Assembly (NCBI GenBank): GCA_003116975.1
Contig: BGKB01000036.1
Span: forward strand, 1 to 64,000
DNA: 64,000 nt
DNA from: Aurantiochytrium sp. KH105
Taxonomy: Eukaryota; Sar; Bigyra; Thraustochytrida; Thraustochytriidae
Direction: 5' to 3'
The position numbers and the translations under genes are program-made. Shown here piece by piece: positions 3,804-22,566 of this stretch (position 1 is the stretch's first letter; each line of letters starts with the position of its first letter). The notes under the pieces were generated by a model that was not told the DNA's origin, searched no databases, and saw only the letters and a list, made by a program, of their open reading frames with translations.

Positions 3804-5749
3804 GCGACAGCCACGGACCCAGCCCGCTCTGGTTTGCAGGCCGCCTCGGAGCACGATGACAATGTCTCAGTTCCTCCTGCCCCTACTGTGAAAATGGGTT
3901 GCTCTGAGCTGTCCGTTACTTCTGCCAGCCATCCATTGGAAAATGGGTTGCTCAGCGACGAAGTCTATTTTGGCAAGCAGAAGACGAGGGCGCAGTAGAG
4001 TGTGAGCCACGCAACGCGGCCGCCGTGCGGACGGTGGAAGCCTCGCGAACGGATCCTACGAACGATGGGCCAGGTGCTGCGCCGGCGGGCGCGCACAGCG
4101 GCAGTGCCGGGGGCGACAACCCGTGGCAGTCGCCACGCCATCTTGGATCGATAATGGTGTTTAGCAACCAGGATGCGGCACCACTTACCCAACGTCCATA
4201 CGCGAAGATGGATAGTTGGCTGTGCGACTCAGGCGCGGATGTGTCCGTGATGAGCGCGCAGCTGTTTAGGGAGGCCAACAGGGCCGGCGTGCCACTGAAG
4301 ATGGCCGCGCCTCAGCCTGGCCAACCAACCGCAGTCTCTGTCGCAGACAGCACACCGCACCAGATTCAGGGCTACGCAACGTGCTGGGTTGCCCTGCCGT
4401 CCCATTTGACGGTGGGTGGATCTCTGCTTCGATGTGCTTTCGCAGTGCCGGCGGACGACTATAGAGGCGATGAATTGCTTTTGGGCCGTGAAGTATACGA
4501 CGAGCTTGGCATCCCATCTCTCGAGCAGCAAGTAGGAAAAAGCTGTCTGGGAAGTCCCTGGATACGGTCGAGCATGTTGAGCGTGCCCTGACCGGGGATG
4601 AAAAAGTTATGCTGACAGCTGCTCGGGGAATACAGATTGGTGACATGGTCAGGCCCGCACAAAAGCAATCGCGCCTTGCGCGGATTCGGGTCACCCCGAC
4701 GGCGGAGATTCGTCACCTCTCCACACTCGAGGCGAAGACGGCGCACATTTGTCTACGGAAAGAACGCTGGATGCGTGTGTAGACCATGTGGGCATGGACG
4801 ATGTCCTCGATGGTTTCGGCGTGGAGCCGGACACTAGCGATGACGAAGTTCTGGGCACAGCTTTTGACCATTTGGGTCATGCCGAGAAGATCAGCGACCA
4901 GGACGCACGCGTGGCGGAAGAGCTGGAGGAAATTGTGCAACGTGCGCTGACAGCGGCGCTCCCTTGCGAATATGAGGAAAAGCTCTGGACGCTACTTTTT
5001 AAGCATCGGCCAGTTTTTGCATTGGACTTTTGCCTCGATCATCAGCTTTGGGACACGCAACTCTATTCGGAGATGCTACGTGACGACGATGAGGTCCACG
5101 CACGACGGCCACCGCCGCGGGCGTATCAGCCGGAAGCTGATGCGTACCTAGAAATAACGGTGGACAAGTACATCGAGTGTGGGAAAATGCAACCATTCGT
5201 CAACAACGAGAGCACGGCACGGCTGCCTGTGAGTTATTCCCAAGCCGGAAAAGTTGGGCCAGCCCAGGAAATACCGTCTCACGTGGGATCTACGGGCAGC
5301 GAACAAACGTGTTCGACCATTGCACTATCCCCAGCCGACGGCAGACGCGGTCATTGACTCACTCATGAGCTGCACACCCACAGCGTTTTTTAGTTGCGAT
5401 ATAAAGGATGCCTACTGGCAAATCCCCATCGACGAGAAAACATCGGTTTTTTACACGTTGGTGACGGCCAAACACCTGGTGCAGCCCAGGTCACTACCGC
5501 AGGGTTCACGCAATGCACCGGCTGCATTTTGCATGAAAATCCAGGAGACGTTTGAAGACATTATGGCCGATGGTGACATGGTTGCTTTTGTCGACGATGC
5601 GGCGGGCAGCGCGCCCAACATTGAGGAGCTTTTTCGGAAACTGGAGCGATTTTTGACACGATGCATGGACAGGCATATCTACCTCTCACCGTCAAAATTT
5701 GTCGCCTACACGAAGCGTCTGCCGTACCTAGGACGGATGTGAGAATATG

Positions 5750-6520
5750 CTCATCAGCGAGGCGAATCGTGAAGGGAGTCGCGAGGGGATGCAACGAAGA
5801 AAAGAGAGAGCGCGCGCCAGAAAGGGTGCGCGAGCAACCCGAATCCACCACGGCGAGAGAATAAGAAGAGGAAGACATTCGTTTACGGAGAATTTCCCAC
5901 CCAGCTACGCGGTCGCGGAGCGCCGCAGGGACCTTGGATTGCCAAGCAGGATCGACGCGAACGTCGGGAGCTTTGCATGCAAAACACGCATGGCCCCTGC
6001 GCCCGCAACGAAAACAAGTGGGCGTGCGACGGGCGGCGGAGGTGGAGCGCGGGGCCGTCGCGGTCATGGCCAGAGCGGGAGATAGCGGTTGCTGGATGGC
6101 GTGCTGACGGAGAGCTGCGTGTACGTCCACGAAGAAACGCTCGAGGTCGTAACAAGCAGCGGTTGCGTCATCGGAGCCGGTGCTAATGTTCATGCGAGCC
6201 ACAATGGCTGACACGGACGGGATGTGCACTGGTGCCGCGGCGAAAACGTCAGGGAAGGCGTAGACGTGACAGCTGGCGGCATGAGCGGGGGAACGACGGA
6301 GCGTGGTCAGGATGGATTTCGTTTCGCGAACGTAGGTTTCCCATGCATCGGGATCGCCGTCCTGCCGAGTGCTGATAAGGCGCAATTTGTTCAGGAGGGA
6401 ATGAAAGTGAGACGGCTCCAACCGTTCCATGGTGGCGAAGCGGAAAGAAGGCGTAGCAAGAAGATGCTGGTGCCCATGAGAAGGGCCCGGTCGCAAGGGC
6501 AAAGAAATGACTCTCAATCT
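5750..6520 (-). mobile_element. Copia-type retroelement fossil, gag to protease only
   Basis: On the minus strand, a frame with a likely start near 6430 (MERLEPSHF) encodes a gag-like helical region. It continues into a CCHC zinc knuckle (C-F-R-C-G-x3-H-x4-C) and a protease segment with V-D-S-G-C-S-R-T-L-S-G. That order and the DSGCSRTLSG context are typical of Ty1/Copia polyproteins. The copia-like sequence stops at about 5750, where it abuts the Ty3-type RT of the opposite strand. Integrase, RT and RNase H are absent, so it is a truncated fossil. An LTR could not be delimited to its right. Confidence 0.7.
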
Positions 6521-9320: not shown

Positions 9321-12300
9321 ATGAGTTGGGCGACGCGCTTGCTCGCGCTCTTCAAGGGAGGCGGCGACGATGGAGCATGCGCCGAGGACGAGCCGAGAGA
9401 TGAACCTCCTTTAAGCATTGCCGTCCTCGTGGTCTACGATCCTGCGGACGAGGCTGCTGCCAAGCACTTAGTCGATGCGATCCAGCCCAAACTGAGCTTG
9501 CCGGTGCGCACCGCCAGCCACGTCGGAGGCAGAAAAGAAGGCTGAGGCGGCCAACGTTGCTGCGATGCTAGTGAGTGCAGCTTTGCAGCAAAATGAGCCT
9601 CTTGTCAGGGCCGTGGCCGGCAAATTGCCGAATGCGCTAGTGCCGGTGGTAATCGACGCGTTAATGGCCTTGCAAAAGTCTTGGCATGGTGAAATCAGCT
9701 ACCATATGGCCAACGAGCTACACTTTGATTTTTGCGACCCCAAGATGGCCACGATATCTTACCTTCTCGGTCAGTTTCGAGACAAAGTAAATGGCGTGCG
9801 AATTGACAAAGAATTCGACGTTTTCATATCGCACGAGTGGGGCGTTCACAATATCGCAAAAAAGCTCGCGGAACTACTCGAGAGTAGTCACCGTTTAAAA
9901 GTCTGGCTCGATGAGAGGGAAGTTACTGGAGGTGTCGATGCAAGTATGTCCCGCGGCATCGAAGGGTCAAAGGTCTTTCTTGTCCTAGCGACCGAGAGAT
10001 ACATGGGGAAGATCAATCGTGGAGACCGGAGCGACAATTGCCTAAAGGAGTTTCACCACGCTGGTAACCAGCGCGCGGATCGTATCGTGATTGCTGCGTT
10101 AGAAGAGGACATGGCCAAGGCTGCAACGAAATGGACCGGGCCATTTCAGCTTGCTTTGTCCCGCCAGACACCAGTTAACCTCACCACTCTCTCAAACAAG
10201 GCAGTCCAGCGCCTTGCCGACGCCATTGGGACGCGCATCAAGACCCCCAAGGCTTCATCGGGCCTGACCCCTTTGATGTGCGACATCTATTCTCGCCTTA
10301 ACCCGTGCAGCTCTGAGGTGTGGGCCAAGGGCAAGGCCAACAAATTTACCATCGGCACGCGGAGCTGGATAATCGACGAACTCTGCAATTGGTACATCAG
10401 TGAGAAAAGTCCTGTTTTCATTCTCATTGGCGACGGCGGCGTCGGCAAGAGCGTCATCACGGCCGAGATTTGCCGTCGTGGAGGCACTCTCCGCACCGAC
10501 AAAGTTACCGAAATGAACGGGGATGATGAAATCGACAAAATCCAACAAGAGTATTCACATGGGCCTGACCTGTCGCATCGTGGAAAGAGAAAGCTGCTGC
10601 CTATTGATGTGGCGGCTTACCACTTCTTTCGGCATGATCAAGTCACGGCTGCTTCGCCGAAAGAGGCTCTCATGAGCATTGCATGGCAGCTCTGTCAGCG
10701 TGTGCCCGGCTTTGCCGATGAGCTGGACTCCGTGAGCCTTAGCGATATCCGCGACAAGCAATTGACCGAGGTCTTCCAGACCATTCTCGTCAATCCTGCA
10801 AACAAGCTTGGCCCAAACCAGGTGCGAAAAGTGGTCGTGCTCGACGCTCTCGACGAGTGCGGCAAGAGCGACGATGTTCTGCGAGAAATTATTCGTACGT
10901 GGAAAGAAATGATGCCCTCGTGGCTTGGCTTGGTTGTGAGCACACGCCCCGAAGGCGAGATCCAGCGTGGCATCGTCAACAACAGCCTTGACTTCACAGT
11001 GCTGGATCTCAAGGACGAAGAGAACTTTCGCGACATCGAGAAGCACATCGAGCACCTGCTGCGCGACATGAGCGGTGTCGTGGAACAAAGCGACGTTGCT
11101 CATTGCGTCAAGATTCTTTCCGAGCGATCCGAAGGCCTCTTTCTCTGGGCGAGCTTCCTTCCCGAGACCCTGAACCGGATGCACGAGGAGAAACAAGGTG
11201 GACTGCTGACCTTGCAGGACATCTCTCACAAAGACGCCATCCCCAATGGGCTTGGCGGCATGTTCAAAGAGTACTTTGAGCGCCTGCAAGAAAAAGTTGG
11301 CGGGGAGATGACGTACAAGATGCTCCTGGCGCCAATCGTAGCTGCTCGTGAACCGCTGAGTGTCGAGCAACTAAGCGCAGTTCTGCGAATAGACCAAGAT
11401 GACATGGACGATATTGTTGACGACGCGTGCAATCTCTTATATCGAGGCGGCGATGGTCGTGTGGCACTCATCCACAAGCGGATGGCAGATTGGCTCTCAG
11501 ATAAGAAGCAGAGCGGAAGACAGCTCTTCGTGAAGAAAAAAGACGGGCATAAACAATTGGCCGACTACTGCAGCAGCTCGCGGGACGACGTTTTTTCGCT
11601 CCGTCACGCCGTCTTTCACCTCGTCAAGAGCGGCGAGCACGCTGCGGCTTTCGAGCTCCTGAATGACTTTGCATGGGTAAAGAGCGCCATCTCTGTCGGT
11701 GACGATGAAGCGCAAAGGCGCACAACAATCGGAAACCTCATTCGCGACTGCGTCGAAGTCGACATCTACTTTGCGCCCGAAAGTGATACGCCCCGCTTCC
11801 TGAGCAAAGCAGTGCATGCTCTCAGCTACGACCCCAACGAACTTGCGTCGCAAGTTCTGGCGCGTCTTGGTCACGACTCGAAAGATCCCTTGGCACGTAG
11901 TCTGCAAACACCTGATCAGCAATGGCTGGAGCCTACCCGCGTCACCCTTGCTCATCCCCGCGACCCCTTGCTGCATGTGTTGAAGGGGCACTCTGGTCGG
12001 GTCAACAGTGTGGCGATACAGGGCGACACCATCGTCAGTGGGTCCATGGACAAAACGGTGCGCATCTGGAACGCTACGTCGGGCGAGGAGCAGCACGTGT
12101 TGAAGGGGCACTCTGGTTCGGTCAGCAGCGTGGCGATACAGGGCGACACCATCGTCAGTGGGTCCGATGACGGCACGGTGCGCACCTGGAACGCTACGTC
12201 GGGCGAGGAGCATCACGTGTTGAAGGGGCATTCTCTTCCGGTCAACAGCGTGGCGATACAGGGCGACACCATCGTCAGTGNNNNNNNNNNNNNNNNNNNN

Positions 12301-13204
12301 NNNNNNNNNNNNNNNNNNNNNNNNNNNNNNNNNNNNNNNNNNNNNNNNNNNNNNNNNNNNNNNNNNNNNNNNNNNNNCGTCAGGCGAGGAGCAGCACGTG
12401 TTGAAGGGGCACTCAGGTCCGGTCAGGAGCGTGGCGATACAGGGCGACACCATCGTCAGTGGGTCCTCGGGCAACACGGTCCGCATCTGGAACGCTACGT
12501 CGGGCGAGGAGCAGCACGTGTTGAAGGGGCACTCTGGTTCGGTCTTGAGCGTGGTGATACAGGGCGACACCATCGTCAGTGGGTCCTCGGGCAACACGGT
12601 CCGCATCTGGAACGCTACGTCGGGCGAGGAGCAGCACGTGTTGAAGGGGCACTCGGGTTCGGTCTTGAGCGTGGCGATACAGGGCGACACCATCGTCAGT
12701 GGGTCCTCGGGCAACACGGTCCGCATCTGGGACGCTACGTCGGGCGAAGAGCAGCACGAGTTGAAGGGGCACTCAGGTCCGGTCAGGAGCGTGGCGATAC
12801 AGGGCGACACCATCGTCAGTGGGTCCGTTGACAATACGGTGCGCATCTGGGACGCTACGTCGGGCGAGGAGCAGCACGTGTTGAAGGGGCATTCTCTTCC
12901 GGTCAGGAGCGTGGCGATACAAGGCGACACGATCGTATCACAGTCATGGGATGCGACTCGTTGCTGGTGCGCTCGAACGGGCGAGGCATTCGACGCGGAT
13001 ACGGCAGTGGCATCGACTACACCTGGAACAAAGACGTTGGTGAACGTTGAGAACGGAACGCATGTGAAGCTTAGCGGAGGTATAGGCTTCACTACGGATC
13101 ACGCAATCTCTGACACAGCTTGCCAGGGAGGTATTTACGTTATTGGCGACAAGAGCGGGATGGTACACATCTTGCATGTCCAAGGAATTAAACCTGAGAC
13201 CTAA
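9321..13204 (+). CDS. TIR-NACHT-WD40 protein (NLR/STAND class), one frame break and one assembly gap
   Basis: The likely ATG at 9321 opens about 70 codons containing an alpha/beta segment (VLVVYDPADEAAAKHL). The frame is then lost near 9525 and continues one frame over through SEAEKKAEAANVAAML. Numbering from the ATG at 9565, a TIR domain spans about residues 83-225: FDVFISHEWG, VWLDEREVTGG, SRGIEGSKVFLV, and CLKEF with Glu162 at the place of the NADase glutamate. A NACHT ATPase follows, with Walker A GDGGVGKS at 289-296 and Walker B LDALDE near 425, then a helical region. From 11974 come near-identical 40-residue WD repeats, broken by 97 Ns. A short C-terminal region contains a degenerate WD-like unit (GDKSGMVHIL). 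The architecture matches signal-transducing NTPases used in innate immunity or heterokaryon incompatibility; the role here is inferred. The break may be a sequencing error, since the rest is intact. Confidence 0.85.
11974..12994 (+). repeat. Tandem array of near-identical 120-bp WD40 repeats
   Basis: Units start at CA[CT]GTGTTGAAGGGGCAC positions 11974, 12094 and 12214, then after the gap at 12395, 12515, 12635, 12755 and 12875. The spacing is exactly 120 bp (40 codons). Most bases are invariant between units. Differences cluster at unit residues 8, 9 and 11 (after KGHS) and 25-27 (after VSGS). The last unit diverges after VAIQGDTIVS. At least eight units are visible, one of them cut by the gap. 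Confidence 0.95.
12281..12377. other. Assembly gap (97 Ns) inside the WD array
   Basis: The run of N falls between GACACCATCGTCAGTG and CGTCAGGCGAGG. From the 120-bp period the missing length should be 36 bp plus a multiple of 120. The value 97 does not fit this, nor does it keep frame, so it is a size estimate rather than a measured gap. The true repeat number is unknown. Confidence 0.95.
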
Positions 13205-20031: not shown

Positions 20032-22566
20032 ATGTCTTATCGCGGCGCAAAGAGCGGCGTGGTCAACGACTTGGTCTTGCTCGACGGGTCGGGCGAGCAG
20101 GAGATCGTAGAGGCCCTGGCCGCGCGCCACCGCGCCGATGAAATCTACACGTACATTGGCGAGGTGCTCCTCGTTGTGAACCCCTACCGTCTCATCAGCG
20201 GACTCTATGGATCGAGCAAAATTCGCTCCTACGTCTCGAAAAAGCTCTACGAGAGACCTCCCCACGTCTACGGCATCGCAGAGATGGCGTACCGGTCCAT
20301 GATGCTCAACACTTCCAACGAATGTGTCATCATCACCGGCGAGTCCGGCGCCGGCAAGACCGAGGCCAGCAAGACCGTCATGGAGTACGTGGCGGCCATG
20401 GCAAGCAAGAGCAAGCAGGTCCAGCACATCAAGGACGAGCTCCTCCAAACCAACCCTCTGCTGGAGGCCTTTGGTAACGCCAAGACCCGCCGCAACGACA
20501 ACTCTTCGCGCTTCGGCAAGTACTTTGCCATCAACTTTCTCTATGGCGACCCCAGTGGAGGTTCCATCTCCACTTATCTGCTGGAAAAGACCCGCGTCAC
20601 CCATCAGCAGGAAGGTGAGCGTAACTTTCACATCTTTTACCAGCTGCTCTCTGACAGCCGGAGGCGCGGCGACTTCAAGCTCTCCGGCAGCCCGGGCGAT
20701 TACAACTTTTTTGGCGACCCCGGCGCCGCCAAGGTGCGTAGCATCGACGATGCCAGGGACTTTAGCGAGACCACCCGCGCCATGGACTTTATCGGCATGG
20801 GCGGTGACGAGCAGAACGCCATCTTTGCCATTCTCGCCGCGATTCTCCACCTCGGCAACGTCGAATTCGAGTCCCGAGGCCGTGACGCTTCTGACATTGT
20901 CAACGCGCGCGCCGTCTCCGAGGCCGCCAGCCTCCTCGGCGTCAACGAACGCGACCTCAGCACGGCGCTTACCCACCGCACCGTAAAGTCCGGCACCGAG
21001 AGCGTGCGTACCAGTCTCAGCGCCGAGAAGGCTGCCTTTGCGCGCGACTCGCTCGCCAAGTCGCTCTACGGTCGCCTGTTCGACCACATTGTCGCTCGCT
21101 GCAACGAGACCATCCATACGGAGCAGTTTTCCACCTGCATCGGCGTTCTCGACATTTACGGCTTCGAGATCCTCGGCGTTAACGGCTTCGAGCAGCTCTG
21201 CATCAACTACACCAACGAAAAGCTGCACGCGCTCTTCATCGAGCTCACGCTCAAGGGCGAGCAGGCAGAGTACAAGCGTGAGAACATTTCCTGGGTTCCT
21301 GTCGACTTCTTCGACAATACTCCCATTGTCGAGCTCGTCGACCGCCGCGGCGGCCTCTTCTCCCTCATCGACGAACAGAGCATCTTCCCCCAGGCCACCG
21401 ACGCGACGCTCTTTCAAAAGTTCCAGTCCAACATTCGCGCCCGCGAGCTCTCCGTTCCTCGAGGCGCTGCCCCCGGGGAGTTTGAGATCCGCCACTACGC
21501 CGGCACCGTGCTCTACAACACCGAGGGCATGCTCGAAGCCAACAAGGATACACTCTTTCCGGATCTCGTCCTTGTCGTCTACCACACGGCACGCAACCCC
21601 ATTGCAAAGGATCTCTTTGCGGACCATCCTGCTGTGGACGCCGGCCGCAAGACGAACAAGCGCCCGCCTACGACCTGCATGCAGTACAAGAAATCCGTGG
21701 CTGACCTCATGGACACGCTGCGCTCCAACAACCAGCACTACATTCGCTGCATCAAGCCCAACGAGTCCAAGCGCGCTGGCATGTTCGAGGGCGACATGGT
21801 CATTACCCAAGTCCGCTACCTCGGCATCGCCGAGAATCTCATTGTGCGTCGCGCTGGCTACGCCTTCCGCATGACCTACGACGAGTTTGCCGCAAAATTC
21901 AAGTGCGCCGTCGCCGGAACCGACCGCTGGGAACCAAATACGCGCAAGGCCACCGAAGATATTCTCCGCAAGGGAGGAGTCAAGCACTACGAGCTTGGTC
22001 GTACCAAGGTCTTCATCAAGGACGCCAAGGATCTCTTGCGCATTGAGGATGCCCGTCGCAACTTTCTCGAAACGGCGGCAGAGTACCTTCCCGAGGATGA
22101 TGGCCTCATTGGTGCCGATCGTGTCATTGCCTTCAACGCCAAGGCCGTGCGCGTGCCTCTTCTTCTCGTCGTTGGAAGCAAGGGCCTCTACCTCTACGAC
22201 CCGGACGGTCGCCAAACGGAGCACCACGCTGCTTTCAGCGAGGTCGACAGCCTCGCCTTTAACGAAAAGGAGGGATGGATTGCTGCCCTCTCCACGTATC
22301 CGGGCAAGCACCAGGAGGACCCCGAGGTCCAGGTCACTTACCTCATGGAGAACATTCACATCTCCGAGGTCCGCAACTGGGTCGAGGTGCTCAGCAACGT
22401 CGGCGTTGACCTTCCCCTCACCGCTTCCTCTTCGTACCCCATGGATGCTGTCGATGGTCCGGCCTACAAGGCCAACCTCAAGCTCGTTGGTTCCGGCGCT
22501 CTCAACCTTCCTGCCATTCGCAACGGAGGAGGCGCGCCTGCTGGGGGCTGCTGTGTCATTGCCTAA
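20032..22566 (+). CDS. Class I-like myosin heavy chain with C-terminal CaaX box
   Basis: The 844-residue product has a complete motor domain (about 8-680): P-loop GESGAGKT at 103-110, NDNSSRFGKY in switch I, DIYGFE in switch II, and LRSNNQHYIRCIKPN in the actin-binding region. A tail of about 160 residues resembles the myosin-I TH1 lipid-binding domain (LLLVVGSKGLYLYDPDG, VTYLMENIHISEVRNWVEVL). Between converter and tail I see no IQ motif for light chains. The protein ends GGCCVIA: the last four residues, C-V-I-A, form a CaaX prenylation box predicted to favour farnesyl transfer, with an extra Cys next to it. The role is inferred to be actin-based tension or transport at membranes. The start ATG lies in a GGCGCCATGT context. 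It is intronless. Confidence 0.93.
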   Translation: MSYRGAKSGVVNDLVLLDGSGEQEIVEALAARHRADEIYTYIGEVLLVVNPYRLISGLYGSSKIRSYVSKKLYERPPHVYGIAEMAYRSMMLNTSNECVIITGESGAGKTEASKTVMEYVAAMASKSKQVQHIKDELLQTNPLLEAFGNAKTRRNDNSSRFGKYFAINFLYGDPSGGSISTYLLEKTRVTHQQEGERNFHIFYQLLSDSRRRGDFKLSGSPGDYNFFGDPGAAKVRSIDDARDFSETTRAMDFIGMGGDEQNAIFAILAAILHLGNVEFESRGRDASDIVNARAVSEAASLLGVNERDLSTALTHRTVKSGTESVRTSLSAEKAAFARDSLAKSLYGRLFDHIVARCNETIHTEQFSTCIGVLDIYGFEILGVNGFEQLCINYTNEKLHALFIELTLKGEQAEYKRENISWVPVDFFDNTPIVELVDRRGGLFSLIDEQSIFPQATDATLFQKFQSNIRARELSVPRGAAPGEFEIRHYAGTVLYNTEGMLEANKDTLFPDLVLVVYHTARNPIAKDLFADHPAVDAGRKTNKRPPTTCMQYKKSVADLMDTLRSNNQHYIRCIKPNESKRAGMFEGDMVITQVRYLGIAENLIVRRAGYAFRMTYDEFAAKFKCAVAGTDRWEPNTRKATEDILRKGGVKHYELGRTKVFIKDAKDLLRIEDARRNFLETAAEYLPEDDGLIGADRVIAFNAKAVRVPLLLVVGSKGLYLYDPDGRQTEHHAAFSEVDSLAFNEKEGWIAALSTYPGKHQEDPEVQVTYLMENIHISEVRNWVEVLSNVGVDLPLTASSSYPMDAVDGPAYKANLKLVGSGALNLPAIRNGGGAPAGGCCVIA

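Follow-up and report, generated by a model that had tools for sequence, protein, structure and literature searches.

What does a gene that combines a TIR domain, a STAND NTPase and a WD-repeat sensor do in a thraustochytrid protist, and does it stand alone? The question is raised by positions 9321 to 13204 of contig BGKB01000036.1 (C36) of Aurantiochytrium sp. KH105 (assembly GCA_003116975.1), which lie in a stretch of 64,000 nucleotides that we call the window. A first-pass annotation had read this interval as a single gene encoding a TIR domain with the NADase-position glutamate, a NACHT ATPase with intact Walker motifs and a WD propeller, adjoining retroelement fossils and perhaps acting as an NAD-depleting defence or allorecognition receptor. 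That account was right on the domains, wrong on the one intact gene and understated on the family. What we add to it is that the binding-face positions of the WD sensor are hypervariable throughout the family. We consider it probable that the window holds one member of a diversified family of intracellular non-self receptors with a putative TIR NADase head.

The genome assembly comprises 76,034,492 bases in 367 contigs. A search with the NTPase core as query returned 77 matches, all of which were scored; 65 belong to the family (at least 53% identity) and 12 are distant relatives (27-37% identity). Once fragments on C27, C131, C51, C123 and C213 are merged, about 59 family loci are counted, of which 39 (L009-L047, the window copy being L009) were read and about 20 were not. 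The Walker A motif GxxxxGKS is present in all 39 read loci, and the Walker B region reads LDALDE in 38 and FDALDE in one. In 26 loci a single frame contains the glutamate motif of TIR, Walker A, four or more GHS/GHT WD motifs and the C-terminal tail; the other 13, including the window copy, lack one or more of these marks, some being cut by contig ends or gaps. Several genes occur on two contigs, and because of this pairing the genome is apparently diploid. Since the window copy itself is probably damaged or mis-assembled, it is the family that carries the argument, and its anatomy, conservation and pattern of variation are directly observed.

Pfam searches of the window copy and of its paralogue L010 recovered the layout of NLR and STAND proteins, with an N-terminal effector, a central NTPase and a C-terminal repeat sensor. 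In the window frame that opens at ATG 9565, the TIR_2 model scored 44.3 bits (cut-off 28, Pfam E 3e-11), the NPHP3_N-type STAND NTPase 64.1 bits (cut-off 24.8, E 2e-17) and WD40 66.4 bits (cut-off 27). The term NACHT needs some qualification: both Walker motifs are intact, but the Pfam NACHT model itself reached only 21.8 bits in the window copy, under its cut-off of 26.7, which a paralogue (C26:1132707) exceeds with 28.7 bits.

The WD repeats provide the central observation. Among 248 near-consensus repeats of 40 residues, strong variation was confined to positions 7, 8, 10, 24 and 26 (2.3-3.8 bits, against at most 1.43 elsewhere), and these five positions formed 221 distinct five-letter combinations. 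In the predicted propeller, positions 7 and 8 lie in the d-a loop, position 10 at the start of strand a, and positions 24 and 26 in the b-c turn; the pairs 8/10 and 24/26 flank V9 and D25, respectively. They agree with the hotspots R1-2, R1 and D-1, which in WD40 proteins make up the binding face of the propeller (PMC3419727). The residues found there are skewed strongly to Trp, Tyr, Asn and Asp. At positions 8, 10 and 24, Trp is 7.2-fold and Tyr 4.8-fold above the expectation for random codons; at the hypervariable positions Asn is raised 3.9-fold, and Ala, Val, Cys and Gln are reduced to 0.2-0.3 of expectation. Enrichment in Trp and Tyr is usual for binding surfaces, and the excess speaks against a mere loss of constraint. 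Because these positions are hypervariable family-wide, the defence or allorecognition role first suggested for the window gene has become much more likely; the NAD depletion proposed with it stays putative.

Rates of change at the five codons differ from those of the rest of the repeat. Between repeats 1 to 10 bases apart (3127 pairs), the proportion of non-synonymous differences (pN) reached 0.430 at the five codons against 0.016 at the remaining 35; its ratio to the synonymous proportion (pN/pS) was 1.47 and 0.36, respectively. Omega, the corresponding ratio on trees, was 1.27 at the five codons on the backbone tree of 274 repeats (score at least 24), and 1.44 on the backbone tree or 1.13 on the full tree of 211 repeats (score at least 28, six close pairs being reduced to a single member each); at the other 35 codons it was 0.32-0.35 across these three choices of tree and subset. 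The strongest signal came from codon 8 (omega 1.81, p 7e-6), followed by codons 10 (1.36, p 0.041) and 7 (1.32, p 0.047).

Several observations weigh against the receptor reading. Only codon 8 is strongly above neutral, codons 7 and 10 are marginal, codon 24 has an omega of 1.21 (p 0.14) and codon 26 one of 0.64, below 1; the tree counts are, moreover, approximate because repeats recombine. Three likely allele pairs differ little at their hypervariable codons, with 3 non-synonymous and 3 synonymous changes of 65 (L030/L032), 2 and 5 of 55 (L046/L047), and 4 and 4 of 40 (L026/L037), which argues against a fast process; L021/L031 is the only one of four compared pairs with a burst (38.9 and 8.1 of 50). 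Exchange of repeats between genes finds little support: with hypervariable positions included, repeats are 79.0% identical within genes and 77.9% between them, DNA-identical repeats are common only to L020/L023 and L030/L032, and adjacent repeats of an array resemble each other only a little more than non-adjacent ones do (21.0 versus 23.4 differences). Such exchange is the least supported step of the explanation offered below. Repeat arrays may also be mis-assembled, a caution raised in PMC12222747.

Could the five positions then be unconstrained surface sites of young duplicated WD repeats, in a housekeeping or regulatory family under no selection for diversity? The modest mean omega of 1.1-1.4, the low value at codon 26 and the quiet allele pairs are what this explanation would lead one to expect, and highly repetitive WD40 proteins generally have variable hotspot sites, according to passages of PMC5587647. 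We nevertheless regard it as unlikely, since the residue composition is far from that of free mutation and codon 8 evolves well above neutrality. Counts of single-step changes point the same way: non-synonymous changes are seven times more frequent at the five codons (109.8 versus 15.6 per codon), but synonymous changes are about equal (22.8 versus 18.1). This combination favours selection over a local mutator, and so bears equally on the proposal that targeted mutagenesis, for example by a diversity-generating retroelement, makes the diversity in place of selection on ordinary mutations. Such retroelements do diversify NACHT-linked sensors in multicellular bacteria, as excerpts of PMC10907252 describe, and here the total number of changes per codon is 278 at the five codons against 43 elsewhere, with synonymous changes also raised when multi-step changes are included (228 at 5 codons versus 720 at 35). 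However, the single-step synonymous counts show no clear rise, and A, C, G and T are all found at every position of each of the five codons, without an adenine-only pattern. We consider targeted mutagenesis very improbable, although no search aimed at a template repeat or a reverse transcriptase was made.

A different doubt concerns the window copy alone, whose features are collected in the table. No single open gene spans 9321-13204: the frame that begins with ATG 9321 runs into a stop codon at 9543-9545, the TIR domain sits in a different frame, and the reading frame changes again across 97 undetermined bases (N). Relative to a copy on C363 (96% DNA identity across 3209 aligned columns), the window copy has a 2-base gap near 9526, and the N-terminal region of the C363 copy stays open. 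From sequence, the window copy may be a young pseudogene with a recent frameshift, the assembly may be in error here, or the gene may start later, for example at ATG 9565. Whether the window copy is a pseudogene with no function of its own is, in our judgement, evenly balanced. The frame broken before the TIR domain, the N gap and the open counterpart on C363 favour it; that ATG 9565 still yields TIR, NTPase and repeats, that non-synonymous divergence in TIR is low between C36 and C363 (dN/dS 0.008/0.047), and that an assembly error could cause the interruption count against it.

Table. Features of the window copy (positions in the window; N, undetermined base)
Feature	Positions	Strand	Remarks
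N-terminal frame MSWATRL..., 74 codons then stop	9321..9545	+	homologous to the family N-terminal module; matches the beginning of L010 and of other paralogues in alignment
Main open frame to the N gap, first ATG 9565	9496..12280	+	rest of N-terminal module, TIR, NTPase, winged helix, first WD repeats
TIR domain	9820..10185	+	Pfam TIR_2; predicted fold agrees with TIR structures
Codon of NADase-position glutamate (CLKEF)	10048..10050	+	Glu162 counted from ATG 9565
NACHT/NPHP3_N-type STAND NTPase	10354..11037	+	Pfam search
Walker A GDGGVGKS	10429..10452	+	intact
Walker B VVVLDALDEC	10831..10860	+	intact
Winged helix (HTH_TANC1 model)	11320..11601	+	28.8 bits, cut-off 27
WD repeats 1, 2 and part of 3 (120-base units)	11977..12280	+	
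Assembly gap of 97 N within the repeat array	12281..12377	no strand	frame shifts across the gap
Four WD repeats and one degenerate repeat, 3' of the gap	12398..12997	+	
C-terminal tail common to the family (GFTTDHAI..VHILHVQG) and stop	12998..13204	+	

Outside the repeats, median dN/dS, taken over pairs with dS of 0.02-0.8, was 0.24 for TIR (118 pairs), 0.28 for NTPase and winged helix (597 pairs) and 0.46 for the N-terminal module (140 pairs); TIR and the NTPase with its winged helix are thus under purifying selection, the N-terminal module less so. Of the 36 family loci with letters at the site, 35 retain the TIR glutamate. The sole exception, L045, has a coiled-coil-like helical N-terminus in place of TIR, a swapped head with a weak PigL_N match (E 4e-4, below cut-off), and carries 16 WD repeats. 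A family profile aligns the glutamate with the Lys-Glu of Caenorhabditis elegans TIR-1, whose aligned Glu we take to be the catalytic one, and weak profile matches link the domain to Avs1b and ThsB. The predicted fold resembles known TIR structures, and a single-sequence structure model places the glutamate (model residue 83) within helix 77-91, at a mean predicted local distance difference test score (pLDDT) of only 63. Fold and residue together make the TIR domain a putative NADase. Genome-wide, a first look gave 258 TIR_2 candidates, of which 150 were scored; at least 150 domains exceed the curated cut-off, about 30 of them at loci of the family by coordinates, and the genome seems to hold further TIR families besides this one.

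The segment that precedes TIR (window 9321-9800) is a conserved module of unassigned fold. Its 74 residues in the window copy gave no Pfam match, none covered it in L010 among the best 25 of 45 Pfam families, and there was no convincing match in the PDB, the best (E 0.26) being to sugar isomerase/deaminase entries. By eye the module (e.g., VLVVYDPADEAAAKHLVDAIQP) looked TIR-like, as if the proteins carried tandem TIR domains; profile-profile comparison with TIR gave a probability of only 0.9%, and the idea was dropped. Over 528 pairs of loci, identity in the TIR domain follows that in the N-terminal module (r 0.81), but NTPase identity correlates poorly with either (r 0.41-0.44, 0.41 for TIR). 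L015 and L021, for example, have NTPase DNA that is 94.5% identical, against 58.4% identity for the N-terminal module. This decoupling of the NTPase from TIR and the N-terminal module indicates that heads and bodies have been reassorted between members.

Genes farther along the window encode a myosin head (20032-22563), a Sec7-PH protein and WW-FYVE-Arm proteins, and these eukaryotic genes establish the window as part of a nuclear contig rather than bacterial contamination. As for the adjoining retroelement fossils, one match to the retroelement polyprotein model Pol_BBD was found at 5564-6517 on the reverse strand, a weak one of 21.2 bits against a cut-off of 27; the Pol_BBD-like element has 15 matching places in the genome including this one, 8 of them with an internal stop. 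Of the about 59 family loci, 43 are on contigs of known size; 33 of these lie on contigs of at least 150 kb, and 19 of these 33 are within 30 kb of a contig end, against 5.0 expected. This excess may reflect a subtelomeric location or the breaking of assemblies at repeat arrays; we do not claim the former, since inspection of the window and of 8 loci revealed no array of the TTAGGG type. Recent transfer from prokaryotes or viruses was likewise set aside: tblastn at E 1e-3 yielded no relative among phages, plasmids, prokaryote contigs or viral contigs, the latter two scans being bounded by the patterns used (28 and 106 pattern stretches, respectively). A divergent member of the family, L042 (2016 residues), has a long second stretch that resembles degenerate propeller repeats. 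Other NACHT proteins occur on paired contigs (L001-L004); by eye, one has a WD40-like, TEP1-like end and one has TPR-like repeats. Pieces of PfaA-type polyunsaturated fatty acid synthase lie at C72:311448-314582, C155:172083, C290:39390 and C61:503, also on paired contigs. The match, of 930 bits, covers positions 6-1035 of the 2582 in the model and falls short of its cut-off of 1010; a synthase of this type is associated with thraustochytrids and so hints at such an organism.

Plant TIR-NLRs, bacterial Avs and TIR-STAND proteins, and SARM1/TIR-1 combine a TIR effector bearing a glutamate at the catalytic position with a STAND switch, and their sensors are built of LRR, TPR or ARM repeats. The protist sensor, in contrast, is a WD40 array, and in this respect it is close to that of the NWD/HNWD genes of the fungus Podospora anserina (HET-D, HET-E, HET-R). 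The available parts of the reports (PMC1805685, PMC4986451, PMC2873952) describe a gene family with NACHT and near-uniform WD repeats, in which two variable codon pairs, each around a fixed codon, lie on the top face of the propeller. The fungal pairs are 7/9 and 25/27 around conserved positions 8 and 26, where the protist has 8/10 and 24/26 around its V9 and D25. Codon pairs in the WD repeats of HET-D and HET-E are under diversifying selection (PMC1805685, in part), and positive selection at all four codons is characteristic of HNWD genes; of the protist counterparts, codon 8 is clear, codon 10 marginal, codon 24 not significant and codon 26 below 1. The systems differ further in repeat length (40 residues in the protist, 42 in fungi), in number of loci (about 59 versus 10), in the additional variable position 7, and in that fungal repeats are over 80% alike within a gene, against the small difference within and between protist genes and the weak support for exchange. 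The head differs as well. Among the best 25 of 39 Pfam families for the window copy and the best 25 of 45 for L010, the HET domain was not found; TIR and the N-terminal module of unassigned fold take its place.

Other relatives share parts of this design. In the red alga Chondrus crispus, 58 of 61 nucleotide-binding (NB) genes are of the NB-WD40 type and 23 of these 58 include TIR, so that TIR, NB and WD40 are likewise combined, but these 23 are described as having a transmembrane dipeptidyl peptidase-like domain in addition (PMC7145615, in part). Brown algal ROCO and NB-ARC-TPR candidate receptors are likewise families with a diversified sensor, in which repeats are shuffled and positive selection acts at four positions of the binding face; they differ in joining LRR (one per exon) to ROC-COR, or TPR to NB-ARC, and in belonging to multicellular organisms, and no TIR-NACHT-WD40 receptor appears among them in the passages available of PMC11378527. 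Highly repetitive WD40 proteins (305 were examined, 86% of them from bacteria and fungi) similarly have conserved repeats with diverse hotspot sites; they are a general class, and the main text of PMC5587647 contains neither 'TIR' nor 'NACHT'. Portions of two further reports describe fungal NLRs with a true TIR as a small group (PMC10197012) and, in choanoflagellates, NACHT-LRR proteins together with SARM1 homologues that keep the glutamate (PMC6040629). Among the open-licence papers of PubMed Central that our searches listed, judged mostly by title and the opening of the abstract, we found nothing closer in protists than the TIR-NB-WD40 genes of C. crispus, and nothing on TIR together with NACHT in thraustochytrids or on labyrinthulomycete TIR domains.

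By analogy with these families, from which ligand, oligomer, NAD+ cleavage and outcome are borrowed, each WD array would fold into one or two propellers, the top face of which would display a private combination of residues able to bind a non-self protein from a parasite, a virus or a conspecific. Binding would free the STAND NTPase to oligomerise, and the oligomer would gather TIR domains, whose cleavage of NAD+ would trigger either a defence response or cell death. Mutation and exchange of repeat units would probably give rise to new specificities, with selection acting on the binding positions. The role may be allorecognition or defence against parasites or viruses, as sequence does not tell them apart.

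More tentatively, we suggest that a unicellular non-fungal eukaryote maintains an anticipatory receptor repertoire: dozens of TIR-NACHT-WD40 genes, spread across two haplotypes, would each show their own combination of binding residues, and recombination and selection would renew the set. The sensor of fungal allorecognition would then have been invented in parallel and coupled to a TIR death head of plant and animal type. Work on receptor repertoires with diversified sensors covers plants, animals, fungi and brown algae. A large family of this kind in a probably single-celled protist would offer a system in which to ask what receptors detect where there is no tissue to sacrifice, whether death by a TIR NADase pays in a unicell, and whether evolution repeatedly picks the same propeller positions as its recognition surface.

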